Assembly (NCBI GenBank): GCA_025923075.1
Contig: JAICGN010000008.1
Location: 1 to 64,000, forward strand
Direction: 5' to 3'
Length of the DNA stretch: 64,000 nt
Source of the DNA: Chitinophagaceae bacterium
GTDB lineage: Bacteria; Bacteroidota; Bacteroidia; Chitinophagales; Chitinophagaceae
The notes below the pieces were generated by a model, which worked only from the letters and a program-made list of their open reading frames with translations, was not told where the DNA came from and did not search any database. Positions 15,350 to 36,366 of this stretch are shown here, piece by piece (position 1 is the first letter of the stretch; every line of letters begins with the position of its first letter). The position numbers were made by a program, and so were the translations under genes.

Positions 15350-16858
15350 CTAGTGTTTAAAGCTTCTAAAAACCAGACGTTGTTCGCTTTTTGGAGGAGC
15401 GGCACCAGCTAAGGTATCGGCTGGTTTGAATCCTTTTCTACTTCCAGGTCCAAACGGCATCGCCTTGGTTTTGGTGGGTATGTATTTATAATATTCATGA
15501 AGCAATTTTTTCCAGCCGGTTTTTTTATAGAAGCTCATTTTGTTGTTATTGAGAATTGACTGTTCTGCATGATCTTTAGTAGCGGGAAAACAAATTGAGA
15601 TCCCATTTCCCCCAATTGCTTTATCTCCTAAAATTGATTTTTTATAGTTGTTCCCAATATAACCACTGATAATATTGTTTTGTAACTGGTAAAGAACATT
15701 AAATATTTTTTCCTCTAATACCTGGTCTGTATTGTAAAACAAAAGATTTTCCAGCAGCCAGACGAGGTCAATATTAAACATCGGGAAGTCAATTTCGCTC
15801 GCCTGAAGGCTATCTGTGTCTTTATAAGTATAATCCAAACATTGTTTTCTTGCATTTTGAAAAAGATAATAGATGCGATTATCTTTTTCAATTAATCCCT
15901 TCGTTAAATGAGAACAAAGAATATTGAAGACATCTAAAAACTTTTCATACTCCTCAAGATAGACACTCGTGAGAGAAACACCCATTTCTCTGAATTCCGG
16001 CACATCGCTATCATAATCTGCGTAATTGTTATAAAAAAATATTGACACAAGTAAATTTGCCACTTCTTCGGCTTTTATAGCCGGCCTATTTATAAAGTGT
16101 TTACAAAGATGGGTATATCCCAGCCCCAAGGCAGGCATTTCATCGGCAGATGCTATAAAATGGTTTGTAAGACCTACAAAAGTATTTGCATTTTCAATTT
16201 GCTGCGCCCAGCAACAATCCATACAAATAAAGTCAAGTTGTTTTTTAAAAACGGCATCAAGGGCTTCGGCCAACTCGGTATATAAAAGTGATTTGCTATT
16301 CCCCCTGCTATAGATCAATAGCAGCGGCTTTTTCCTTACAGCGTTCTTCGTAACCACCGGGTACTCGCAATATCCTTCAAATGTCCAGCCCCTTTCGGCA
16401 TTTCCAAATTTTTCTTTAATTTCATCATCGGTTATCTTCGGATCTACCACCACCATTTTCGTATTAAAGGCACCTCGCGAAATATCGGTAGTGCCAGCGC
16501 CGCCATGACCTTTGTAAATGAAGCCATATTTGTCTGATGGGAAATTGGCAATGACTAACTTTAGCAACTTTTCCAGGTTTTTTTGATCCGTTAGTCCCGT
16601 ACCGGATGGCTTGAGCCGGTGAAAGCACGCATCGCTTATAAATGTTGCGCCTTTTGTTACATGGTAAATTGAAGGAGCAGCGAAACCTTTTGAAAATTTA
16701 TCTCCCTCTATGGCATCAAATAAGATCACGAAATCAACATCGTCGCTGCTGCCAATTGAATAAAGCTCATTGATGACTGACAATTGTTCATGGAATAGGT
16801 TATTTTTTGCACTGAGTAAAAAGATCAGTGTCCATTTTTTTCCAGGCTTCTTTTTCAT
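15350..16858 (-). CDS. Clostripain-family (C11) cysteine peptidase, copy 1
   Basis: The protein has 502 residues and no signal peptide, so it probably acts in the cytoplasm. It shows the caspase/haemoglobinase-like C11 fold: first strand WTLIFLLSA, catalytic His118 in FIYKGHGGAG and catalytic Cys near 215-216 in DFICMDCCWAQ. The C-terminal segment GNGISICFPATKDHAEQ and W-KKLLHEYYKY matches the second C11 protein of this window (29960-31774), so the two are paralogues. It starts only 57 bases from the divergently transcribed propeller sensor kinase, an arrangement repeated at the second locus. Clostripain-type enzymes cleave after Arg or Lys; the substrate here is unknown. Confidence 0.85.
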   Translation of the reverse strand: MKKKPGKKWTLIFLLSAKNNLFHEQLSVINELYSIGSSDDVDFVILFDAIEGDKFSKGFAAPSIYHVTKGATFISDACFHRLKPSGTGLTDQKNLEKLLKLVIANFPSDKYGFIYKGHGGAGTTDISRGAFNTKMVVVDPKITDDEIKEKFGNAERGWTFEGYCEYPVVTKNAVRKKPLLLIYSRGNSKSLLYTELAEALDAVFKKQLDFICMDCCWAQQIENANTFVGLTNHFIASADEMPALGLGYTHLCKHFINRPAIKAEEVANLLVSIFFYNNYADYDSDVPEFREMGVSLTSVYLEEYEKFLDVFNILCSHLTKGLIEKDNRIYYLFQNARKQCLDYTYKDTDSLQASEIDFPMFNIDLVWLLENLLFYNTDQVLEEKIFNVLYQLQNNIISGYIGNNYKKSILGDKAIGGNGISICFPATKDHAEQSILNNNKMSFYKKTGWKKLLHEYYKYIPTKTKAMPFGPGSRKGFKPADTLAGAAPPKSEQRLVFRSFKH

Positions 16859-16915
16859 GGTAATGGCTTGGTATCTAAAATTATTATTAATTTAATTCAT
16901 TATTATAGAGTTTCC

Positions 16916-19900
16916 ATGAGACTACCTTTAATTTTAATTATTTCTTTTCTTTTATTGGTGTTAAAGACAGCCAATTCGCAGCAGCTCAATGTGAAAACTT
17001 ACTCTTTTGCAGAAGGTCTCAATACATATAATATAAAGAAATCGCTCCAGGATAAATATGGGTTTATATGGCTCGCTACCCAGGACGGCGTTTACCGTTT
17101 TGATGGAACTTCTTTCGAAGCCTATAAGAAAAATGAGGATGTAAAAAACAGCCTAAGAGAGAATTTTATTTTTGATATAGCATTAGGAAACGATGAAAAC
17201 CTGTATATCGCTTCTTTTAATGGCGGTGTCGACGTCATCAACATACGAACCCAGAAAGTCACTCATCTTCTATCGCAAAAAAAAGAAAATGAAGAAGGGC
17301 TTCCAAATCTGTGGATAACAAAAGTCTTTTGTGATACAAAGAATAATTTGTGGATTGGCGCGCAGGATTTTTTAAAGATTTATAGTTTGAACGAACAGAA
17401 GTTTAAAGATTTTCAACTGCCCTCAAATCTTAACACTGATATCAACGTTTTATTTATACGGCCGGTAAATGAAAACCTTATTGCTGTCGGGATTAATAAT
17501 TATGGCGTTTTGTTTTATGATATCAACTCATTAACAATTCAGGACAGTTTAATAAGACTTGAAGGAATACAGGCTGATAATATAACTGTTAACGATCTGG
17601 CTGTGATAAATGACAGTTGTTATATCAGTTCAGGATCAAATATATTCAGCGGCGCGATCAATAATCGCCGCTGGGTTATGGAAAGAAAGATCACTATCCC
17701 GGCTATCAGTAATAATGTTATTAATTGTCTTGCCGCCGGGAAAGATAATGCGCTCTGGTTGGGAACAAATAGCGGTATTGGAAAGCTGGAATTGATCAAA
17801 ACTCAGTTTAGTCCTATTGTTAACAATGAATTTCTTAATGCCGATAATTTTATTACCGATCTTTTTCTTGACCGGGAAAATGGCCTTTGGATCAGTTCGT
17901 TAAAAAATCTTATCCGGATAAACCTTGCAGTCTCCCCCTTTACTGCATACACAAAAAGTAAAGATGGTAATACGAGGATGAATCATATTTATTCACTTAT
18001 TCCTGTAAGTAAAACCCAGCTCTTTGCATGTGGTACGGATGGTCTTTACCTGTCTGATCTTATTACAGGAGATATAAATAAAATAAAGGGTACTGCGGCG
18101 TTAGGTATTATACATTGTGTCTTAAAAATGGATGATGATACCTGGCTGGTATCATCCGCGGATGGTATGTATGTTTATCAGCAAGCGATAGGTGTCCTTT
18201 CAAAAGATCTGTTATTAAAATTGTATCCGGAATGGAAACCGTTTATAAGCCATTTTTTTAATAAAACTGTTAAGTCCGGGGATAAGATCTATTGGGCAAA
18301 TGAAGGACAGGGAGGATTATTAATATGGCAGCCCGAAAAGCATATGATAACTCAAAAAAAAGCAGGATCAGCGTTTTCTGGTGGGTTGCCCGAAAATCAT
18401 ATACATAATCTTAAGTTTGACAGGGACGGGTTTATCTGGATCTTATTTGACAATGCCGTCGCAAAATTCGATCCGTCGCTTGATTCCACTATTCAAATCA
18501 TTAACTATAAACGCAATCAAGGCGGGTTTAATTCCGGGATCTTTTTTGATATGTACGATGATGACTCCGTATTATGGTTTGGCACTTATGGCGGGGGTAT
18601 TAATGGCTACAATAAAAAAACGGGGGAATGGAAATACATTACTGAGCAAGATGGTTTGTGTAATAATGCTGTTTACGGTATACTCCCGGAAAAAGACAGT
18701 GTTTTTTGGGTGAGTACGAATAATGGAATTTCAAGGGTAAATTATGTAACAAAAAAATGTCTTAATTATTTTGTAGAAGATGGTCTCCAGGATAATTCTT
18801 TTGACGAAACAGGAGCACTGGCATTTGAAAATAGATTATTTTTTGCCGGAGTAAACGGATTTACAAGTGTTGACTTAGATAATTATTATAATACTTCATA
18901 TCCATTTCCTGTTTATATAAAAAGATTAGAATACATACGACAAGACAAAAAAGTTGTTTTGAATGACCTGGAATGGAAGAAAATTAAATTACCGGCAGGG
19001 ACTTCTTCTGCCACTATCTGGTTAAGTGCATTATCCTATACAAGCAGCAGGCCAAGGTTTAGTTATCTAATAAAGGGATTCCAGGATGAGTATTTGCCTG
19101 CCGGTGAAAAAAACAAAATCGAATTGAATGCCTTGAACCATGGTAACTATGAGATCGATATCCGGTACCTTAATGAGCAAGGTGAATTTGTTGAAGGTCA
19201 GGTTGGTATTGACATCGAGATCCTTCCTTTCTGGTATCAAACCTGGTGGTTCCGTTTGCTGGTGCTGTTATTTTCTTTACTCGCTGTCTTTTTTGTTGTC
19301 CGGCTTATCTACATCTCAAGATTAAGAAAACAACGGGCAGTGCTCGAAAGACAGCTGGCTGTTCAATTGGAAAGACAAAGAATTTCTTCCGAAATGCATG
19401 ATGATATTGGTGCCGGGCTTTCAGGTATAAAACTCTTGACCGAAATGACAAAAGGAAAAGTAAAAGATGAGACAGCTGGCGCTGAGATCGAAAAAATATA
19501 TCAATCAGTTGGCGATATTTCGGCTAAAATGAAGGAAGTGATCTGGAGTCTTAACACAGAGAACGATCAGTTGTCAAGCCTTATCTCATATATTCAACGT
19601 CAGGCGAGACTATGGTTGGAGCATTATCCCTGCGAGCTTACCGTTACAATTCCTGATGAAATACCTGACCTCGAACTTAATGGCGAATCAAGACGTAATA
19701 TCTTTCTTGCCATCAAAGAGGCAGTTCATAACATTATCAAGCATTCCGGAGCGGATAAGGTAAATATTGAGATAACATGTAAGGAGAATTTGAAAATTTC
19801 TGTTTCAGACAATGGAAAAGGAATTCAGCCAGGCGATACCAGTGATATGGGAAACGGTCTCAAAAACATGCAACAACGTATGCAGAATCTGAATGGAAAA

Positions 19901-19969
19901 TTCTTTTTACAAAACAATGATAATGGTCTTACTTTACTATTTGAAATTCCCTATAAACAGGCTGTATGA
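16916..19969 (+). CDS. Propeller/Y_Y_Y sensor histidine kinase, copy 1
   Basis: The ATG at 16916 is preferred because it gives a proper signal peptide (MRLPLILIISFLLLVLKTANS); an upstream TTG at 16868 is also in frame. Two-component propeller repeats (YGFIWLATQDGVYRFDG and others) fill residues 20-660. A Y_Y_Y domain (about 680-770) follows, then one membrane helix (FRLLVLLFSLLAVFFVVRLI). The cytoplasmic part is a HisKA_3 kinase with its phospho-acceptor in SEMHDDIGAGLSG and intact N-box (IKEAVHNIIKHS) and G-box (VSDNGKGI, MGNGLKNMQQRM). The next gene, a NarL-type regulator, overlaps its stop by four bases. The periplasmic propeller probably senses a glycan or another extracellular ligand. 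Confidence 0.92.
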   Translation: MRLPLILIISFLLLVLKTANSQQLNVKTYSFAEGLNTYNIKKSLQDKYGFIWLATQDGVYRFDGTSFEAYKKNEDVKNSLRENFIFDIALGNDENLYIASFNGGVDVINIRTQKVTHLLSQKKENEEGLPNLWITKVFCDTKNNLWIGAQDFLKIYSLNEQKFKDFQLPSNLNTDINVLFIRPVNENLIAVGINNYGVLFYDINSLTIQDSLIRLEGIQADNITVNDLAVINDSCYISSGSNIFSGAINNRRWVMERKITIPAISNNVINCLAAGKDNALWLGTNSGIGKLELIKTQFSPIVNNEFLNADNFITDLFLDRENGLWISSLKNLIRINLAVSPFTAYTKSKDGNTRMNHIYSLIPVSKTQLFACGTDGLYLSDLITGDINKIKGTAALGIIHCVLKMDDDTWLVSSADGMYVYQQAIGVLSKDLLLKLYPEWKPFISHFFNKTVKSGDKIYWANEGQGGLLIWQPEKHMITQKKAGSAFSGGLPENHIHNLKFDRDGFIWILFDNAVAKFDPSLDSTIQIINYKRNQGGFNSGIFFDMYDDDSVLWFGTYGGGINGYNKKTGEWKYITEQDGLCNNAVYGILPEKDSVFWVSTNNGISRVNYVTKKCLNYFVEDGLQDNSFDETGALAFENRLFFAGVNGFTSVDLDNYYNTSYPFPVYIKRLEYIRQDKKVVLNDLEWKKIKLPAGTSSATIWLSALSYTSSRPRFSYLIKGFQDEYLPAGEKNKIELNALNHGNYEIDIRYLNEQGEFVEGQVGIDIEILPFWYQTWWFRLLVLLFSLLAVFFVVRLIYISRLRKQRAVLERQLAVQLERQRISSEMHDDIGAGLSGIKLLTEMTKGKVKDETAGAEIEKIYQSVGDISAKMKEVIWSLNTENDQLSSLISYIQRQARLWLEHYPCELTVTIPDEIPDLELNGESRRNIFLAIKEAVHNIIKHSGADKVNIEITCKENLKISVSDNGKGIQPGDTSDMGNGLKNMQQRMQNLNGKFFLQNNDNGLTLLFEIPYKQAV

Positions 19970-20589
19970 TTAAAGTAGCAATCGTTGAAGACAACGATCA
20001 ATTCCGTAAAGCGTTAGAAACGATCATTAACCAGGAAAAAGACACTGAATTGCTTGGTTCATATACGAGCGCTGAAAAAGCGTTAAGTGCTCTGGAACAA
20101 TCACCTCCTGATATCGCAATAATTGATATCAGCTTGCCCGGAATGAAGGGTACCGAATTAATTGTCCGGCTTCGGGACAAATTGCGCCATACACTATTTA
20201 TGGTGTGCACTATTCACGACGATAACGATACCATTTTTGAAGCGTTGAAGTGTGGCGCCGCAGGGTATATTTTAAAGGACCCGGTCACCGCAGAGGAAAT
20301 TATCAAAGCTATTCGTGATCTGTACAACGGTGGTTCGCCGATGAGCCCTTTTATCGCAAGAAAAGTGATCGGCACTTTTCAAAAGCCAGTTATCAACGAT
20401 GTAAACTCTTTGCTGAGCCAACGGGAAAAGGAAGTGTTGGAACTTGTTGCACAGGGATTGCTTTACAAAGAAATTGCTTTGCGTCTTACTATCAGCGCAG
20501 AAACAGTAAAAAAACATCTTAAGAATATTTACCAAAAACTCCATGTGCAAAATAAAGTTGAGGCGCTTAATAAGTTTCGTTCCCGGTAA
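19966..20589 (+). CDS. NarL/FixJ-type response regulator
   Basis: This 207-residue protein has a receiver domain (VEDNDQFR, phospho-acceptor Asp in DIAIIDISLPGMKG near residue 53, Lys in YILKDPV) and a LuxR-type helix-turn-helix (SQREKEVLELVAQGLLYKEI, then SAETVKKHLKNIYQKL). It overlaps the preceding kinase by ATGA, so the kinase/regulator pair is coupled. The pair sits beside the C11 peptidase, which starts on the opposite strand upstream of the kinase, and that peptidase is an obvious candidate target. Confidence 0.94.
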   Translation: MIKVAIVEDNDQFRKALETIINQEKDTELLGSYTSAEKALSALEQSPPDIAIIDISLPGMKGTELIVRLRDKLRHTLFMVCTIHDDNDTIFEALKCGAAGYILKDPVTAEEIIKAIRDLYNGGSPMSPFIARKVIGTFQKPVINDVNSLLSQREKEVLELVAQGLLYKEIALRLTISAETVKKHLKNIYQKLHVQNKVEALNKFRSR

Positions 20590-27448: not shown

Positions 27449-27997
27449 ATGAAAAAGCTCACTATCTCTTCAATCGTTTTACTGCTTGCGGTATTTGTTA
27501 TATCGTGTAACAAGCAAGCTGACCTTGTAACCCGGTCATTCACCGGAACAACTGTAACAACTGCGCCCCCGGATACTACCACCATCGTAAGCAATTGGTT
27601 TTCGCTTTCCGTCGACGATGTATCTGATGATATGGGTGGAGTTTATTTACAGGGAATGAAACCATTCAACAACCAGGCGGCGTATAATAGAAATCTTCAT
27701 GTGGAGTTGGCTTTTGTTTCAATGCCTGGCCAGCAGGATCGGATCATCCGCCATTTGCCAATGAACCTGGAGTTTACACAGGGTGGTTCCGACCAAACAT
27801 ATGGTTTTAGCTTTTGGCTGGGTAATTCCGAGTTTTTTCTTAGCATCCAAAATCTAAACGATGTTACTATAGCTCCCGACCCAGCTATTACCCAGGATTT
27901 CAAATACAGGTATATCATCATTCCAAGACAGGTGTATCATACATTGGGTATTGATTGGGATAACTATGATGAAGTAGCTCAAGCCTTAAATCTATAG
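27449..27997 (+). CDS. Unknown lipoprotein, paralogue 1
   Basis: The 182-residue protein has a lipoprotein signal: hydrophobic residues 5-18, then the lipobox VISC with Cys near 20. A Thr-rich linker (TGTTVTTAPPDTTTIV) follows, and then a compact domain with mainly beta strands. The domain aligns along its whole length with the next gene (28221-28772). Shared marks are WFSLS/WFNLS, HVELAFVSMP/HVELAYVMMP, QDFKYRYIIIP/QDFLYRYIVIP and the near-identical end IDWDNYDEVAQALNL. The family is not one I can name. It has its own promoter and a terminator of the CCAGCCC type, so it is a one-gene unit. Confidence 0.75.
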   Translation: MKKLTISSIVLLLAVFVISCNKQADLVTRSFTGTTVTTAPPDTTTIVSNWFSLSVDDVSDDMGGVYLQGMKPFNNQAAYNRNLHVELAFVSMPGQQDRIIRHLPMNLEFTQGGSDQTYGFSFWLGNSEFFLSIQNLNDVTIAPDPAITQDFKYRYIIIPRQVYHTLGIDWDNYDEVAQALNL

Positions 27998-28220: not shown

Positions 28221-28772
28221 ATGAAAATGATTAAAGCCGTTGGCGCCGTTTTAGCCCTCGCAATAACACCGGGATGTGCGTCTCTTTTCAACAATGGCAA
28301 TATCACAAATGGCAATAATTGTGTAAATCATACCTTATCACATACAGGTACAGAACAGACCATAATCAGTTCCTGGTTTAACCTGTCGCTGTTCCCCATT
28401 TCGGACAGAACCGAATTCTACCTGGAGGGTACCGCATATTTTAACAAGTCCGTCAACTATAACAAAGACTATCACGTAGAACTCGCATATGTTATGATGC
28501 CAAACGAGGGAGGACCTGTTTATAAACCCGTACCGATCAATCTTGCTTTGGTTACGGATAGAAAGACAGAGGAATTTAGCTTCCGTTTTGCAATAGATCA
28601 CAGTGGATTTAACCTGAGGGTCAGAAATCTCGACCCTGCTGTTATTACAATTGACCCCCGCATATACCAGGATTTCCTCTACCGTTATATCGTTATTCCT
28701 AGCTCATTATTCAACAGTTTAACGATCGACTGGGATAACTATGATGAAGTAGCTGCCGCCTTAAACCTATAG
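28221..28772 (+). CDS. Unknown lipoprotein, paralogue 2
   Basis: The 183-residue protein has a hydrophobic N-terminus and a Cys near residue 19 (LAITPGC); the -3 residue is unusual for a lipobox, so acylation is likely but not certain. Its mature domain is a tandem duplicate of the previous gene, most conserved in the last 35 residues (LYRYIVIPSS, IDWDNYDEVAAALNL). The two N-termini are unrelated beyond being hydrophobic, so the shared function lies in the beta-rich C-terminal domain. The unit has its own promoter C and a terminator at 28828. Confidence 0.72.
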   Translation: MKMIKAVGAVLALAITPGCASLFNNGNITNGNNCVNHTLSHTGTEQTIISSWFNLSLFPISDRTEFYLEGTAYFNKSVNYNKDYHVELAYVMMPNEGGPVYKPVPINLALVTDRKTEEFSFRFAIDHSGFNLRVRNLDPAVITIDPRIYQDFLYRYIVIPSSLFNSLTIDWDNYDEVAAALNL

Positions 28773-29182: not shown

Positions 29183-29299
29183 GATAGTGATTGAGATGAA
29201 AATATTTTGTGATGTTGGATGAAGGTGTTCAGGAATGTTGTACCTTAAAAGTTCGACTTTAAACAAGCGTCATCTTTTTAACCAAAATAAAATTTTTTT

Positions 29300-29816
29300 T
29301 ATGCCACTGAAAATATTAGCTGCTTTTGGACAAAACGGCAATGGAAGTATTAATTCTGATACATACAACGGAATAACTGCAGGAAATATTTATGAAAAGC
29401 CAAAGGCAAAAATTCTGGCGGGCTTAAATGATTTAAAAGCCAAGATACTTGCAGGTGCAGTTTTTATGGAAACATTAAAAGGTGAAATTCCGGATTATGA
29501 CCCTTTAGACAATGGTGTAAAAGCGAAAATACTTGCAAAGATACTTGCAGGGGGGCCACAGGTATTTGTTGAAATACCTAAAGGCGATATTCCGGAATAC
29601 GATCTTTTAACAGCTGACGCAAAAGCTAAAATACTTGCTAAAATACTGGCAGACCTGGTTGAAGACACAAACAATATCGTTGAGAAGAATTTGCCCGACT
29701 TGTATGAAGAAAGTATCTGCAACCCGTTCAAAATTGAAAACGAAAGATTAAGAAGAATGGTGGGCAATTTGTATGTTGAGAATTATAATCTTAAAAAGAA
29801 AAACGTGCCAATGTAG
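29300..29816 (+). CDS. KAKILA-repeat protein of unknown function
   Basis: The ATG at 29300 is chosen because it sits in the same T-rich start context as the two lipoprotein genes; an in-frame ATG at 29235 lies inside the apparent leader. The 171-residue product repeats the motif KAKILA five or more times (near residues 36, 46, 76, 110 and overlapping copies). Two longer units have the form KG-x-IP-x-YD-x-L, a linker, then AKAKILAKILA. The C-terminus is a charged, probably coiled-coil helix (ENERLRRMVGNLYVENYNL). There is no signal peptide. I cannot assign a family. It converges on the C11 peptidase gene 143 bases away. The Lys-rich repeats would be suitable sites for a clostripain-type enzyme, which is speculation. 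Confidence 0.65.
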
Positions 29817-29959: not shown

Positions 29960-31774
29960 TTAATTGGTACCCGGAGTACTATTCTTCAATAAGAACTCAG
30001 GAATCACATCAGTAATAATCCTATCCTTTTCGAGGAGGGCGGTAGTTAGTTCGTGTATAAAAGCTCCTCTTTCCTCCAATAATTGTTTCTTTTCATCGTC
30101 AGTGGTCACAAGGCTACCTTTGTAATTGCTTTTCTCGCCATAATACTTCATGTACTCAAATATCAGTTTATTCCAGGAAATATCTTTTGTAAACTCATTT
30201 GCAACAGGATTTCTTTTCTTTCCTTTTCCTTTTTCTGAAATTTCTCTATCAAAGAAAATCCCTAAATTTTTGTTGTTCTTATGGGCTTCCTCTGAGTCGG
30301 GAAAATAGATACCAACTCCATGACCCCCATACGAAAGTAAATAATTAAGACTGGGTATTCTGCCGGCTCCGATCCAAGACTGAATAATATACTCATCCTT
30401 CAGGAATTTTATTATGGTTTCGACAAGACCAGGCAATTCTTTTGGATGCTTGATATTATTTTTTGCAATAACTTCTTGAAGTTTTATGAAAAACCAGGTA
30501 ACATCAATAAAGGAATACATGTAATCATCTTCACCAAAATGCCTGCATTGTTTTCTTGCTGTCTTCATCATCTCCCAAACATCCTTTTTCATACTCTCAT
30601 CCTTAATATCGAGTACCATATCAGCGAATTTGCCCAGGTGTTCAGCTAACTTTCCGCTCTTCTTAAGATCAACGCAGGAAATAGCAAGTGATTGTCTTTC
30701 ATATTCGTTATAAGTATTTTTTACAGGGGCATCCAAGACTATTCTTTTAGCAAGTTCAGCAGGAGCCATCGAACAATTTTCTACCAAGGCCTTAAAACTA
30801 TCTTTGTAATTGTACCCGTCAAAATAAATCAATTCTTCGCTGGCTATATAATAAAATGATTTTTTGGTACCATTACTTTTCCTCAGTTCATATCCAAATT
30901 CCACCATTTGCATACAGCAACCCATTATTAATAGAATGTCAACGTCATTTTCTTTTTTCTTCAGACAATCCCTGATTTCTTGTTCGAACAAGCCATCAAG
31001 ATTTGACCGGGATGATAAATATTTTTTAAGTCTTTCTACTTGCGGATTCAATGGCTGCAGGTCATTTCTGTTCGGCAACAAGTCCATTAATTCCATTGAT
31101 CCAATTTTGGATCCGTCCCTATCTTTCAGGTCCTTATAGAAATCTGTTTTTCTTTTGAAAATTGTAATGTCGATTGATGTGGTACCCCGGAGTGTTAGTC
31201 TGATTCTGACCTTATTTCTATCCTTAAACAAGTTCTCCTTTTTAAGCTCCTCTTTAAGGATTATTCGCCGGGGCGACGCCAAATCTGTAATATCAGTCAC
31301 TGTAAGGTCGTTGCCATATAAGTCAATGATCCTTTGGTATGAATCCTCCAAACTAAACATACTCGATCCGCTTCCATGACCCCATAGAAACAATAAATTT
31401 TGAGCCGCATTACATCGTTCTTTACCCCATTTGATAAAGCCAGCCAAAGCATCCTTGCTTCCCATGGAAATCTTGAGAGTATCGTCTTTTACATCTAAAG
31501 GATACTCTAAAGAAAAGTTTTCATCTATTTCAAATCGCCTGGATCCAAAACCGCCCGGGTCGCCATTCTTAGGCGCCCAGTTCGTATAAGCCTGCAGACA
31601 AATTCGCACGTCCCGGTTTCCAAATTCGTTTGGTTTCTGCGCTGCAATAATATTCTTTAATGCGGCCAATTCATCCAGAAAGAGTTTTGACTGTGGGATA
31701 CCGTTTGCATCATCCACGGCCATATAAATCAGAATTGCCCATTTGCCCTTGGGACTACTACCGTTATTTGCCAT
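29960..31774 (-). CDS. Clostripain-family (C11) cysteine peptidase, copy 2
   Basis: The 604-residue protein has no signal peptide. C11 features are the first strand WAILIYMAVDDA, catalytic His133 in LFLWGHGSGS and catalytic Cys near 286-287 in ILLIMGCCMQM. An insertion of about 90 residues between the two catalytic strands makes it longer than copy 1. The C-terminal block GHGVGIYFPDSEEAHK and W-NKLIFEYMKYY matches copy 1. The start codon is only 34 bases from the divergent propeller kinase gene, so both promoters must overlap or face each other in that gap. It probably acts in the cytoplasm after a signal; the substrate is unknown. Confidence 0.85.
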   Translation of the reverse strand: MANNGSSPKGKWAILIYMAVDDANGIPQSKLFLDELAALKNIIAAQKPNEFGNRDVRICLQAYTNWAPKNGDPGGFGSRRFEIDENFSLEYPLDVKDDTLKISMGSKDALAGFIKWGKERCNAAQNLLFLWGHGSGSSMFSLEDSYQRIIDLYGNDLTVTDITDLASPRRIILKEELKKENLFKDRNKVRIRLTLRGTTSIDITIFKRKTDFYKDLKDRDGSKIGSMELMDLLPNRNDLQPLNPQVERLKKYLSSRSNLDGLFEQEIRDCLKKKENDVDILLIMGCCMQMVEFGYELRKSNGTKKSFYYIASEELIYFDGYNYKDSFKALVENCSMAPAELAKRIVLDAPVKNTYNEYERQSLAISCVDLKKSGKLAEHLGKFADMVLDIKDESMKKDVWEMMKTARKQCRHFGEDDYMYSFIDVTWFFIKLQEVIAKNNIKHPKELPGLVETIIKFLKDEYIIQSWIGAGRIPSLNYLLSYGGHGVGIYFPDSEEAHKNNKNLGIFFDREISEKGKGKKRNPVANEFTKDISWNKLIFEYMKYYGEKSNYKGSLVTTDDEKKQLLEERGAFIHELTTALLEKDRIITDVIPEFLLKNSTPGTN

Positions 31775-31808
31775 AACTGCTTGATTTAAACTTTTAATGT
31801 AATTTTAA

Positions 31809-34800
31809 ATGAACTCTAATGTCGCCATCATTATGCCTCACTTGAACTCATCCCTTTTTTTCAGACTTTTCATTACTTTTTTCCTAGCTATCCCCTCTCT
31901 CCATTTAACGGGTCAGGTTCAGTATATCAATTTCAGACATTATTCATTGTCGGATGGATTGAGTTCTTATAAGGTCGTGAAGGTTTTACAGGACCGGTTT
32001 GGTTTTATGTGGGTAGCCACACAGGATGGGCTCAATAGGTTTGACGGTAAAGGTATAATCATTTATAATAAAAGTGCAGGGGAAAAACACCTTTTATTGG
32101 GGAGTGATATCACGGATATGCTGGAAGATACCAGTCGGAATATACTCTGGGTAATATCTTCTTATGGAGGATTGAATGGTATAGACCTGAAAACCGGAGT
32201 GGTAAAATATGCAATGTCAGTGGACGACTCTGCCAGTCGGTTCACCAACCGCTGGTTAAAAACTCTTATCCAAAACAAAGATGAACTCTGGATTGGAACT
32301 TTTGATGGCATCACCGTGTACAATATCAGGGAAGGCCGGTTTAAAACGACTGTATCCATTCCCTTTCAGCGAAGTAGCAATAGCAATAACGAGTTTGACA
32401 TTAATCTTTTTCATCAAGATGAATTCGGCAGGATATGGGCTTTTGTCGCCAATTACGGAATGGTGATTTATTCAGGGCATGACAATTCAGTTCTCCTGTC
32501 TCACCCGCTTGCTGAACTACGGTTCCCGACAGGATTTATTGCCAAACGGGTAAGCGGTTGTAAAAATATTTCGCCACAACAAATTTTGCTGGCCACACAC
32601 AAAGGCATAAAAAAAATCAGTTACGATAAATCAGGTCTGATAAGTGTCCCTGAAGAAATGATGTCCGGCACTGATGGAAAAGCTATCAGGTATCTCAATT
32701 TTGACAGTGAAGGCAACCTGTGGATTGCAACCAACGAAGGGTTATACAGAAATTTTGTTAAGGAAGGCACTATGTCATCGGTAGAAGATGTAAACATCGT
32801 GGACCAGAAAAAGTGGATCAGTTCAGTGAATGATATTTTCTTTGACAGGCATAACAACCTCTGGCTGGGCACCCTTCAAGGATTCGCTGTTGCAACCAGA
32901 ACTCATAGCCCGTTTCTGCATTACTTTCAGTCTGCCGATTTAAAGGAAAAGATCAGCAGGGCCTTTTTTATTTTTCCTTATAATGACTCCGTGGAATATG
33001 TCTGTGCTGAAGATGGTTTTTACAGGGTCGATAACACTAAAAAAAATATTCAGCGGTTGAAAGGAGGACCTTTTTGGTTTATGTTCCGCCATAAGGACGG
33101 AAATCTTTTCCTCGGTACTGATAACCGTTTATTTTCTTTTCAACCACCGGATCAATTCATTGATATTGAAAAAATATATCCTGAACTCTCACCTATCAGT
33201 CATGAATTTATAATGGGCGCTGTTAATTGGAATGACTCGCTAGTGTATATGGGGAGTAAGGTTGGTAATGGTATATATGAATGGAATTATAAAAGAAGAA
33301 TACTTGCAAAACTTGACAGCCATTCCTCTGTCCCCCTCAAAAATGGTATTGTTAATTCAATTTATAAGGACAAACGAAACAGAATCTGGATTTTGTCCAA
33401 TAACAGCTTTGCCGTTTACAATCCCCACAATTATCAACTTGATAATTACGAATTGACCAACCCGGAAACCGGTCAGCCCTTAACTTTCTTTTTCGATATG
33501 TGCGAGGCTTCCGGTTCTTACTGGCTGGCTTCTTATGGATCCGGGATCATACAAATGGATGATAATTTACGGATAAAGAACATTATTTCTACCAACCAGG
33601 GTATGGCAAATGCCGGGCTATATAAAATTTTTCCGGTGAATGATACACTGTTATTCTGCACTTCCAATAATGGGCTAAGTAAAATCAATATCAGGAATTC
33701 TTCCGTTGCAAACTATTTTCAAAGTGATGGTCTGCATTCCAATGCCTTTGAGGAGCTTTGCGGAACTGTATATAAAGGAAAAATTTATGCCGGCGGACCA
33801 GATGGGTTTACCATCATTGATCCAAAATATATAACCACGAATACCATTGCGCCGGAATTATATATCAACAATATTGTCATCGAGACCCAATCGGGCCGAC
33901 AAGAGTTAAGCGACCTTCAAATGAAATCTGCAACGCTTCCCCGAAATCTTTTGCAGGCCACAATTTATTTTTCGGCCCTCAATTATACCAATCCTGAACG
34001 AACGACTTACGCTTATCGCATAAAAGGGCAACAGGAAGAATGGGTCAACCTCGGAACTCAGAATTTTGTGAATCTTATCGGCCTTAAACCAGACACCTAT
34101 ACACTCCAGGTGAAAGCAATTAATGAAGATTCCTATGCCAGCGAAATAAAAGAAATTCAACTCATCTTTCTTCCCAAATGGTATCAGACTTTTTGGTTTA
34201 AGGCTCTGGCTGTTTTACTGGCTCTTGGAATTATATATTTTGTTTATAAAGTTCGCATCAATCAATTAAAGAAAGAAAGAGAGATAAGAACGCACCTGGC
34301 CAGTGATCTGCACGATGACCTGGGCAGTACATTGAACAGCGTAAAAGTTTATGCAAATATGGCCCTGCTTGAAAAAGAAAATCACTCCTACCTGGAAAAA
34401 GTAAAAGAAAGCACACAGGAAGCAATTACTGGCGTAAGAGATATCATCTGGGTGCTCGATGATAAGAAAGATCTTCTTGATCACCTGCTTACAAGAATAA
34501 AGGCGTTCGCCGCTCCGCTTTGCGAGGCTCATCACATAAATTTTCAGCAGCAAATCAATGATTCACTGCTGAACTATAAACTTGGCAAAGAAGAGAAAAG
34601 GAACCTGTATATGATTATTAAAGAAGCTGTCAATAATAGTGTGAAATATGCAAAAGGGAATTCAATTTATCTTACAATTGAACACACACAAAACAAATTG
34701 ACGATAAAACTGGCTGACGACGGGATTGGTTTTGAGAAAGATAAAATAACTGAAGGCAATGGTCTGAAAAATATTATGAACCGCGCCATAGAAATAGGGT

Positions 34801-34862
34801 ATAAAGCAACTATTATTTCACAACCCGGCCATGGTACTACAATTCAACTGGAGAAGAACTGA
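31809..34862 (+). CDS. Propeller/Y_Y_Y sensor histidine kinase, copy 2
   Basis: The 1017-residue protein has a signal peptide within residues 1-37; an alternative ATG at 31833 would also fit. Propeller repeats fill residues 40-690 (FGFMWVATQDGLNRFDG, GNLWIATNEGLYRN, NNLWLGTLQG). A Y_Y_Y domain precedes one membrane helix (ALAVLLALGIIYFVYKV). The HisKA_3 domain has its His in ASDLHDDLGSTLNS, an N-box IKEAVNNSVKYA and a G-box ADDGIGF with EGNGLKNIMNRA, all intact. It is a paralogue of the kinase at 16916-19969 and shares its placement next to a divergent C11 peptidase. No regulator follows on the same strand. Instead a NarL-type regulator converges from the other side with one base between the stops. 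Confidence 0.92.
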   Translation: MNSNVAIIMPHLNSSLFFRLFITFFLAIPSLHLTGQVQYINFRHYSLSDGLSSYKVVKVLQDRFGFMWVATQDGLNRFDGKGIIIYNKSAGEKHLLLGSDITDMLEDTSRNILWVISSYGGLNGIDLKTGVVKYAMSVDDSASRFTNRWLKTLIQNKDELWIGTFDGITVYNIREGRFKTTVSIPFQRSSNSNNEFDINLFHQDEFGRIWAFVANYGMVIYSGHDNSVLLSHPLAELRFPTGFIAKRVSGCKNISPQQILLATHKGIKKISYDKSGLISVPEEMMSGTDGKAIRYLNFDSEGNLWIATNEGLYRNFVKEGTMSSVEDVNIVDQKKWISSVNDIFFDRHNNLWLGTLQGFAVATRTHSPFLHYFQSADLKEKISRAFFIFPYNDSVEYVCAEDGFYRVDNTKKNIQRLKGGPFWFMFRHKDGNLFLGTDNRLFSFQPPDQFIDIEKIYPELSPISHEFIMGAVNWNDSLVYMGSKVGNGIYEWNYKRRILAKLDSHSSVPLKNGIVNSIYKDKRNRIWILSNNSFAVYNPHNYQLDNYELTNPETGQPLTFFFDMCEASGSYWLASYGSGIIQMDDNLRIKNIISTNQGMANAGLYKIFPVNDTLLFCTSNNGLSKINIRNSSVANYFQSDGLHSNAFEELCGTVYKGKIYAGGPDGFTIIDPKYITTNTIAPELYINNIVIETQSGRQELSDLQMKSATLPRNLLQATIYFSALNYTNPERTTYAYRIKGQQEEWVNLGTQNFVNLIGLKPDTYTLQVKAINEDSYASEIKEIQLIFLPKWYQTFWFKALAVLLALGIIYFVYKVRINQLKKEREIRTHLASDLHDDLGSTLNSVKVYANMALLEKENHSYLEKVKESTQEAITGVRDIIWVLDDKKDLLDHLLTRIKAFAAPLCEAHHINFQQQINDSLLNYKLGKEEKRNLYMIIKEAVNNSVKYAKGNSIYLTIEHTQNKLTIKLADDGIGFEKDKITEGNGLKNIMNRAIEIGYKATIISQPGHGTTIQLEKN

Positions 34863-34863
34863 A

Positions 34864-35514
34864 TTATACCTGTACAATTCCGTTTTTAATAGCATAAATG
34901 ACCAACCCTGTTCTTGTCTTGATTTCAAGTTTTTGAAAAAGTGTATCCCGGTAGCCATCCACGGTACGGGGGCTGAGATACATCTTATCGGCAATTTCCT
35001 TGTAAGTCATTTCGGTGCACGCCATTTTAAGAAATTCAATTTCTCTTTCGGTAAGATGAAGTATTTGTTGGGAACCATGACCTTCATCATCCGTGCCTGC
35101 AATACTATGTACTAATCTGCCGGTTACCATTTCAGAATAATAAAAACCTTTTTGCAGGATCGCGTCAATTGCCGTTTTTAACTCCGAGGGTTCAGTGTCT
35201 TTCAGAATGTACCCTCTTGCTCCGTTCTTCAGCATACGGATCACAGCATTTTCATCATCGTGCATGCTTAAAGCAAGTATTCTAATATCAGGATAATTTT
35301 TTTTGAGCCAAAGCGAAGTCTCATAGCCATCCATTTGTGGCATGTTGATGTCAAGTAATACCAGGTCGGGAAGATTATCCGGTTTCAGTTTTTCACAAAA
35401 CTCTTTTCCATTGTTTGCCTCAAATAATACCGTGAACCCCAAGTTACTAACCAGATCTGCCAATCCTTTACGGAGGAGAACGTGGTCATCTACCAGTACA
35501 ATTTTTGCAGCCAT
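34864..35514 (-). CDS. NarL/FixJ-type response regulator
   Basis: The 216-residue protein has a receiver domain (VDDHVLLR, phospho-acceptor Asp in LVLLDINMPQMDG near residue 55, Lys in GYILKDTEP) and a C-terminal LuxR helix-turn-helix (LTEREIEFLKMACTEMTYKE, then SPRTVDGYRDTLFQKLEI). It lies 11 bases downstream of a degenerate kinase gene and converges with the copy 2 propeller kinase, either of which could be its partner. A CCGTGTTTT element upstream of this operon matches those of the cassettes at 26-29 kb, so it may control those promoters. Confidence 0.93.
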   Translation of the reverse strand: MAAKIVLVDDHVLLRKGLADLVSNLGFTVLFEANNGKEFCEKLKPDNLPDLVLLDINMPQMDGYETSLWLKKNYPDIRILALSMHDDENAVIRMLKNGARGYILKDTEPSELKTAIDAILQKGFYYSEMVTGRLVHSIAGTDDEGHGSQQILHLTEREIEFLKMACTEMTYKEIADKMYLSPRTVDGYRDTLFQKLEIKTRTGLVIYAIKNGIVQV

Positions 35515-35525
35515 AGTGTTGGTTT

Positions 35526-36305
35526 TTATTTATTCAATGGTAATACCAGTTTCACTTCGGTACCTTGTGTTTTCCTATTCAGGGTAAAATCAACATTGAT
35601 AATCTTGGCTCTCCGGTGCATTTTGCAGTAGCTCTTGTCCTGGCCTGAGCCGTTGTTTTCTTTAGGCAACTCCGCATCAGCAGACATTCCATCGCCAGTG
35701 ATCACGAGTTCCAGATCATGTTCAGAATTTTTCAATGATACATTGATATTCTTTGCAGCTCCATGTTGGATGAATTTATGCAAAGTTTCCTGGACGATCC
35801 GGAAAAGTATCAGCTCTTTTTGTGCATCAAGCCGGGGCAGATCACCTTCCATTTCGAGCTGGGTTTCATAAAGGTCGGGTTTTTTTATCTGCTCCAGTTC
35901 ATGTTCAATTGCATGGTACAGGCCCAGATTTTCAATTTTGTCTGAACTAAGATTTCTTAACAACCCCCTCAGATCGAGTATAGCTTGACCAACGAGATCT
36001 TTCGACGAGCATATCTTATCTGTTGCGTCCAGGTTAGAAACATCCGTCGTATTCAGGTTAAGCTTGGCCAGGCTAAGTACCTGTCCGATATTGTCGTGAA
36101 TTTCCTTCGATATGTTTTTCAGGGTTTGATCCTGGATCTCCAGTTTTGTACGAAGTAATTCCTTTTGAAACCGGGTCAGGAGCTGGTCCTTTTCACGCAT
36201 CTGCCGGTAATATCGTTTCTGGTAAAAGAAAATGTACACCGTGATCAGTACTACCAGAATTGTTGTGAGGATCATTCCTCCCGCTAAAAGTATATTCAAT
36301 TCCAT
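35526..36305 (-). CDS. Sensor histidine kinase with degenerate ATP-binding domain
   Basis: The ATG at 36305 gives 259 residues; a TTG at 36326 is also in frame. One N-terminal membrane helix (ILLAGGMILTTILVVLITVY) is followed by a coiled coil and a HisKA_3 dimerisation helix with a normal phospho-acceptor His (SKEIHDNIGQVLS). The ATPase part is eroded. The N-box reads ETLHKFIQHG where the related kinases have EAVNN or EAVHN. The G1 box reads ITGDGMSADAELP instead of a DNGKGI-like motif, and the G2 segment (NNGSGQDKSYCKMHRRAKII) lacks GxGLxNM. It may be a pseudokinase or act as a phosphatase or hetero-partner. It is co-directional with the NarL regulator. Confidence 0.85.
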   Translation of the reverse strand: MELNILLAGGMILTTILVVLITVYIFFYQKRYYRQMREKDQLLTRFQKELLRTKLEIQDQTLKNISKEIHDNIGQVLSLAKLNLNTTDVSNLDATDKICSSKDLVGQAILDLRGLLRNLSSDKIENLGLYHAIEHELEQIKKPDLYETQLEMEGDLPRLDAQKELILFRIVQETLHKFIQHGAAKNINVSLKNSEHDLELVITGDGMSADAELPKENNGSGQDKSYCKMHRRAKIINVDFTLNRKTQGTEVKLVLPLNK

Positions 36306-36366
36306 CACAAATACCCCTGTTTTCAATAGTTTAAATTGTATTAACCCACTGGTAATTCCAGTTAAC

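Follow-up and report, generated by a model that had tools for sequence, protein, structure and literature searches.

Two genes for peptidases of the clostripain family C11 occur in a 64,000-nucleotide stretch of a Chitinophagaceae bacterium genome (positions 1 to 64,000 of contig JAICGN010000008.1, assembly GCA_025923075.1; hereafter the window), each head-to-head with a gene for a propeller-type sensor kinase. This arrangement raises the question of whether peptidase and kinase belong together and, if they do, what a caspase-fold protease does beside a membrane sensor. A preliminary description of the window had suggested that the two travel as a unit, with a signal from outside the cell governing a caspase-like protease within it. 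In this study, the two modules were compared with related loci in other genomes. The comparisons firmly support a block, inherited together, consisting of the sensor ectodomain, the C11 peptidase and usually a small protein (the cassette), carried on a conserved kinase/regulator chassis.

Linkage of C11 and propeller kinase genes

A first contig search using a single protein as the query found no relative. Searching with PF03415 detected C11 in 21 of 294 Chitinophagaceae genomes, and an alignment of linked C11s (A1) detected it in 31 of 394 family genomes, counted as 35 loci. One locus found via its kinase (G056b, on L168) and those on contigs L182, L185, L186 and L187 brought the number to 40, of which 39 could be tested, the G294 locus stopping at a contig edge. 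In 38 of these 39 loci, the C11 gene was head-to-head with the gene for a propeller kinase of approximately 1000 amino acids (aa). The sole unlinked C11 (G278) has a hydrophobic N-terminus as in secreted clostripains and looks secreted. Start-to-start gaps in 31 pairs had a median of 17 bp; one locus with an intervening gene showed 886 bp, and some values were negative, for which early calls of the kinase start are at least part of the reason. The head-to-head order was retained at a mean C11 identity of approximately 19%.

The linkage was also observed in the reverse direction. At E ≤ 1e-100, the module 2 kinase was matched in at least seven places in at least five of 60 genomes (the best 13 first-look candidates at most being scored per genome); all five genomes carry C11 and all seven places are C11-linked. 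An extra kinase in G056 turned out to have a cryptic C11. Two kinases without a C11 of their own stand in tandem behind a linked pair (L165:13774-16836 and L032:11550-15065). Against the linked set, their ectodomains reached 193 and 89 bits, close to the 74–159 bits of ten other propeller kinases from the window's genome, whereas each linked ectodomain had a best linked match of no less than 346 bits (12 other propeller kinases tested, at most 193 bits). Therefore, these two were taken as ordinary propeller kinases and rejected as orphan sensors of the clade.

Searches of other families, which covered 395 genomes from the phylum and 298 from the order, yielded 23 C11 loci for examination, none with such a kinase within four open reading frames (ORFs), one weak match (G779) being left out. 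Many of these C11s have, by eye, signal peptides like those of classical clostripains, and six of one family do not. The preliminary description had held that unlinked peptidases and kinases in other genomes would reduce the pairing to chance; within the family the linkage is nearly complete, whereas the 23 C11s outside it are indeed unlinked.

Shared insertion site

A regulator of the module 2 type is widespread in the family: at E ≤ 1e-65, 55 of 98 genomes contained one. In 9 of the 15 regulator loci examined (L190, L191, L193, L194, L197, L199, L200, L201 and L203), it is directly convergent with a metallo-β-lactamase (MBL)/rhodanese gene, or, in L200, merely with a 220-aa relative of that gene; this is the closed form of the site. 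In 11 loci (G166, G106, G217, G228, G007, G957, G269, JABFRU, JAEUVM, JAEUVL and G056b), the cassette lies between the MBL/rhodanese gene and the regulator, with further genes in this interval in G957. Among the genomes with the nine closed sites, G090 carries a cassette elsewhere and the other eight were not among the C11-positives. Since the same two genes flank closed and filled sites, C11 and kinase come and go together there.

Because of the family-wide linkage in 38 of the 39 testable loci, chance pairing was rejected, the reciprocal occurrence and the common insertion site being further grounds. The C11–kinase pairing is real, and these results, together with the matching distances of C11 and sensor part given below, strongly support the proposed joint travel of peptidase and kinase.

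A gene of 234 aa without a Pfam match was also observed between C11 and the MBL gene in four loci (L182:5640-6344, L185:6618-7322, L186:6310-7014 and L165:7769-8473). Its copies are 89–95% identical to that of L182, though the L165 C11 is of another type.

Mosaic structure of the kinase

Co-variation was tested in 31 of the 38 linked loci. Dropped were G003, G056a and G082 (kinase split into several ORFs), the very divergent G056b, and G972, G898 and L187 (start unsure or contig edge). The split kinases (L032, L038 and L040) consist of two or three ORFs, through either assembly error or decay, and the C11 beside them is still open.

Distances between C11s correlated with those between ectodomains at r = 0.87 over the 31 pairs (0.83–0.86 for three length-matched blocks) and with those between kinase domains at 0.23 (0.48 without the module 1 clade). 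For C11 against the whole kinase, the Pearson coefficient was 0.82 and the Spearman coefficient 0.42, indicating that close pairs drive much of the linear value. In the 19 loci with a module 2-type regulator, the correlations were 0.91 for C11 and ectodomain, 0.49 for C11 and kinase, 0.83 for regulator and kinase, and 0.44 for regulator and ectodomain. Sliding-window correlations switched at the membrane helix (Table 1).

Trees gave a similar picture. The module 1 type of C11 (type 1; seven rows, set by ectodomain distance prior to the trees) formed a single clade in the C11 tree with a support of 100/100. In the kinase-domain tree, type 1 needed four changes, and a single clade was rejected by the approximately unbiased (AU) test (p = 1.9e-6). 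The kinase cores of G000 module 1 and G005 are on a very long branch (5.15) and should be read with caution; the other five scatter too, with G857 next to G130 of the same genus and three JA- rows next to other types. One C11 clade with scattered kinase cores indicates that the same C11 and ectodomain have been joined to unlike kinase/regulator chassis. The phospho-acceptor His was present in 31 of 31 kinases.

Judged from these distances and trees, the kinase has a mosaic structure: on one side of a seam at the membrane helix the ectodomain tracks C11, and on the other the kinase domain tracks the regulator. The co-evolution of peptidase and kinase considered in the preliminary description was thus found for the ectodomain and weakly for the kinase domain; the mosaic structure and the third gene described below had both been missed. 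Action of C11 on the kinase domain or on the regulator is disfavoured, because both co-vary with C11 weakly.

Properties of the linked C11 peptidases

The His/Cys dyad was present in all 31 aligned kinase-linked C11s. In C11 peptidases, an Asp two residues before the catalytic Cys (the S1 Asp) goes with Arg/Lys specificity. A published account calls this residue highly conserved in C11 (PMC4850288). Among the linked C11s it was kept in 9 of 31 (the module 1 clade, G145 and G111) and replaced in 22, and the window holds one of each kind, in modules 1 and 2 respectively. With the S1 Asp missing from so many, the specificity of those that lost it has probably changed. The N-termini of the linked C11s seem too short for a signal peptide: the core's first Trp lies at residues 4–22 in 30 of 31 and is unaligned in one.

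By profile comparison, C11 matched clostripain at E 5e-30. The predicted model of the module 1 C11 had a mean predicted local distance difference test (pLDDT) score of 68 and matched clostripain (9cip; Z 26.6, root-mean-square deviation (rmsd) 4.2, 360 residues), 6nag (Z 26.3, rmsd 3.4, 311 residues), and C11 enzymes of Bacteroides/Parabacteroides (Z 25–26). The best non-C11 structure among the matches listed was SAVED-CHAT (Z 11.3, rmsd 3.5, 173 residues); caspase-6 gave Z 9.2, rmsd 4.1, and 175 residues. Ratios of nonsynonymous to synonymous substitution rates (dN/dS) were 0.10–0.15 in four comparisons, part of them at saturated dS. A dead protease was rejected on the basis of these ratios and the intact dyads.

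In L122 (3869-8500), and likewise in L184, a 1543-aa gene with Peptidase_C14 and nSTAND1 domains is located on the same strand 6 bp past the C11 stop. A second C14 protein (629 aa) is encoded convergent to it, so that three caspase-superfamily genes are clustered.

A small third gene

Small ORFs of 66–178 aa were found convergent on the C11 stop, usually within approximately 60 bp. Under a set rule (60–200 aa, ATG start, distance of −30 to 160 bp), such an ORF was present at 23 of 31 C11s, and, for the other genes of these loci with a length of 250 aa or more, at 18 of 189; the rule-based ORF of JAEUVL, antisense to another gene, was counted as none. In G956_b the small gene (L163:10227-10772; 181 aa, 34% identical to that of G178) is between C11 and kinase on the C11 strand, and the figures for motifs, repeats and conservation order take a 116-aa ORF for this locus, not its 181-aa gene. 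A small gene was found beside all 22 C11s without the S1 Asp (window candidate included) and beside none of the nine with it.

Three comparisons of small genes gave dN/dS values of 0.07, 0.13, and 0.21; one row was used in two of them, and dS was high in one. By this measure, the small ORFs are coding and under purifying selection. Across 22 rows, the similarity of small genes followed that of C11 (Pearson 0.88, Spearman 0.32) and of the ectodomain (0.87 and 0.31), with at most 1 in 1000 permutations as high, and that of the kinase gave 0.51 (0 of 1000 permutations) and −0.09. Upon removal of the near-copies G007 and G106, the values were 0.65 for C11, 0.66 for the ectodomain, and 0.01 for the kinase.

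With regard to a possible gasdermin beside the protease, the small genes encode 66–181 aa, and the ten products scanned against Pfam had no match above cut-off. At the C-termini, a Gly-Lys-(Val/Ile) or GKTQN motif is frequent, and the C-terminal motif compared with shuffles was present in 14 of 25 small proteins versus 5.2 in shuffles (maximum 11). A few contain tandem repeats, such as KTQN two or three times, or KRYPAAAAEKP twice in G082. Small-gene alignments A4 and A5, each searched against 125 genomes, gave beyond their own rows (G060; G007 and G106) only partial matches at E 1e-5 to 4e-3, which lie inside longer frames (G087, G015, G049 and G107; G025) and were taken as chance.

The ORF in the corresponding position of module 2 opens at 29235, has its ATG at 29301 and contains KILA seven times, with codons varying synonymously. 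Because it has no homologue in the compared loci and its C-terminal part is unlike that of the other small proteins, it is a candidate only; its predicted structure (pLDDT 43) was uninformative.

A proposed sensor/protease cassette

We tentatively propose, at somewhat less than an even chance, that these genes form an exchangeable sensor/protease/small-protein cassette. A periplasmic propeller ectodomain, a cytosolic C11 protease of the caspase fold and, in most types, a small cytosolic protein would evolve together as one block, joined via the membrane helix to a conserved chassis of kinase and NarL-type regulator. The sensor/regulator pair would control when protease and partner are made, and C11 would act on the partner; as a consequence, an outside cue would become intracellular proteolysis. 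The small partner is most likely what C11 acts on, and is more likely a dedicated substrate than an inhibitor; we infer its cleavage, the direction of control and the downstream effect. Control of a caspase-like protease within the cell by an external signal, as the preliminary description suggested, would be compatible with these observations. The cassette suggests an undescribed way of linking sensing with intracellular protein cutting, and no description of C11 beside sensor kinases was found among the matches listed (titles and abstract starts, open-licence PubMed Central (PMC) literature).

Several points weigh against this proposal. That C11 is coupled more closely with the ectodomain than with kinase or regulator fits the reverse order too, the protease producing the cue that the sensor perceives. 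Neither the gaps nor the upstream regions of the small genes showed a common palindromic regulator site above shuffles. The kinase–C11 correlation, weak as it is, was above all 1000 permutations, like those of the ectodomain, and if the kinase end recombines, physical adjacency by itself could hold C11 and ectodomain together. A small substrate cannot be universal, because no small gene accompanies the nine C11s that keep the S1 Asp, and this split rests on few evolutionary changes. The C-terminal motif was picked after the data were seen, and repeated 4-mers occurred in 9 of 25 small proteins versus 3.2 in shuffles, in which the maximum was also 9. The small proteins may be inhibitors, and the window's own small gene is unproven.

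Alternative explanations

The foremost alternative, unlikely but serious, is a peptide-signalling (pherotype) locus like agr or comQXPA, in which C11 would mature a small precursor, the product would exit, and the matched ectodomain would read it. Such a locus has a variable block of processing enzyme, precursor and sensor, and a conserved block of kinase and regulator. The seam at the membrane helix fits this layout, as do small proteins that track C11 and ectodomain and, in some, repeated motifs. Over 14 common loci, conservation fell from the regulator (0.59) through the kinase (0.47), the ectodomain (0.31), and C11 (0.20) to the small protein (0.17). For ComQXPA, one paper (PMC4008528) gives the order ComA>ComP>ComQ>ComX with a variable sensor N-terminus, and it is this copying of the order that makes the explanation a serious rival. 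However, no exporter domain was found in the 20 neighbour proteins scanned with Pfam, a minority of the neighbours (10 from the window and 10 from L044, L047, L049, L162, and L167). Protease and (by eye) small proteins are without signal peptides, although in the small ORF of G048 the start as called is hydrophobic. In addition, several small proteins, at 120–180 aa, are large for a pheromone precursor, type 1 loci have no small gene, and recent divergence was purifying. A wider form, slightly less probable still, is a Gram-negative pherotype system in which C11 would free a peptide from its hypervariable small partner, or from itself where the small gene is absent. Each co-inherited ectodomain would then respond to its own type alone, and cassettes exchanged on a shared kinase/regulator chassis would define communication groups in Chitinophagaceae.

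The second alternative, which we consider improbable, is a protease with a dedicated inhibitor, comparable to the inhibition of staphopain by staphostatin. The small protein would silence the cytosolic C11, the two-component system would set the balance, and the true targets would be elsewhere in the proteome. The small cytosolic protein, which adjoins a cytosolic protease and co-diversifies with it, fits this explanation, and the conserved Gly-Lys segment at the C-terminus could serve as a substrate-like loop. Nevertheless, in nearly all loci the two genes are transcribed separately and convergently rather than as an operon, C11s of the classical S1 type have no small gene, and multi-copy motifs fit a substrate better.

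Least probable, and by a clear step more doubtful, is that C11 is merely one member of a regulon with general targets, in the way that the VirSR two-component system controls an unlinked secreted clostripain gene in Clostridium perfringens, the co-inheritance of C11 with the ectodomain reflecting only adjacency during recombination. The C11 gene adjoins the ectodomain part and the kinase part adjoins the regulator gene, and recombination in the conserved kinase end would yield the same correlations. However, no unpaired sensor of the clade was found in the 60 genomes within the limits of the reverse search given above, the extra G056 kinase proved to have its C11, and the head-to-head order has outlasted the divergence of the C11s.

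Comparison with known systems

In bacteria, secreted clostripains and conflict systems are the main settings in which caspase-fold proteases are known. The linked C11s share the fold, the dyad and the profile match with clostripain, PmC11, and iotapain, and differ from them in lacking a signal peptide, in the frequent loss of the S1 Asp, and in being paired with a sensor kinase. With agr/comQXPA, the cassette shares a hypervariable enzyme, small protein and sensor part on a conserved kinase and regulator, as well as the conservation order. Unlike those Firmicutes systems, it is found in Bacteroidota; its enzyme is a cytosolic caspase-fold C11, neither AgrB nor ComQ, its sensor is a large periplasmic propeller, and any signal that it uses is putative.

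A periplasmic propeller sensor joined to a kinase is also found in the Reg_prop/Y_Y_Y kinases and hybrid two-component systems (HTCS) of Bacteroidota. The cassette differs from these in having a HisKA_3 kinase and a separate NarL regulator, with no Response_reg domain in either window kinase, and in that C11 adjoins the kinase in every testable cytosolic case. Caspase conflict systems (VMAP/CHAT/C14 and bacterial gasdermins) likewise couple a caspase-superfamily protease with a sensor as well as with a partner gene. Among the structural matches listed, SAVED-CHAT ranked highest outside C11, and one locus has the C14-nSTAND1 gene 6 bp after C11. In contrast to these systems, the cassette protease is C11 rather than C14/CHAT, its sensor is a membrane kinase, the ten scanned small proteins are without a Pfam match, and the two C11s and two propeller kinases of the window have no match among PADLOC models (library of 2023).

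What sets the cassette apart is a caspase-fold protease linked at the gene level with a membrane sensor kinase and, in most cases, with a small protein, and exchanged as a block. It would offer a path by which an external cue leads to proteolysis within the cell or, on the bolder interpretation and if that is true, peptide communication in Bacteroidota. The seam at the membrane helix provides natural chimeras for matching sensor parts to proteases.

Features of the window

The coordinates given for both modules in the preliminary description, and its 57-base gap between start codons, were confirmed by reading the sequence and by Pfam (Table 1). Its further statement that module 2 repeats the pairing with paralogous partners holds for the pairing, but the two C11s are only 17% identical and the regulators are of two different types.

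Table 1. Positions of the two modules and adjoining genes in the window
Feature	Position	Strand	Remarks
Module 1 C11 peptidase	15350..16858	-	PF03415 2.3e-16; no signal peptide; His118/Cys216 dyad; S1 Asp214 present
Module 1 head-to-head gap, C11/kinase start codons	16859..16915		57 bp
Module 1 propeller sensor and HisKA_3 kinase	16916..19969	+	Pfam; core distant from that of most sister modules (tree, AU test)
Module 1 NarL-type response regulator	19966..20589	+	Response_reg and GerE
Module 2 candidate third gene	29301..29816	+	171 aa, convergent to C11; positioned as the small gene of sister loci
Module 2 C11 peptidase	29960..31774	-	PF03415 1.9e-16; S1 Asp replaced by Met
Module 2 head-to-head gap	31775..31808		34 bp
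Module 2 propeller kinase	31809..34862	+	Pfam; membrane helix at approximately residues 797-815 (34197-34253), the seam between ectodomain and kinase (sliding-window correlations)
Module 2 response regulator	34864..35514	-	Convergent with kinase; widespread type
Second small HisKA_3 kinase	35526..36326	-	Adjoins module 2 regulator

The ORF of the module 1 kinase opens at a TTG (16868) upstream of the ATG used here, and the gene overlaps that of its regulator by 4 bp. In the module 1 kinase, Reg_prop, HisKA_3, and HATPase_c were above the Pfam cut-off and Y_Y_Y was under it. The second small kinase is a frequent neighbour of the module 2-type regulator, whether or not a cassette is present.

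Only two C11 genes were detected in the 4.98-Mb assembly, both of them in the window, by the PF03415 and linked-C11 alignment searches; neither had a match in PHROGs. Approximately 12 other propeller proteins are encoded elsewhere in this genome (best 150 of 162 first-look candidates), and no C11 was found beside them in the eleven stretches examined (L169-L179). Upstream of module 2, two related short genes, which are without a Pfam match and were not found in the other loci compared, are located in tandem at 27449-27997 and 28221-28772; their products have lipoprotein-like N-termini and are 45% identical over 138 aa.

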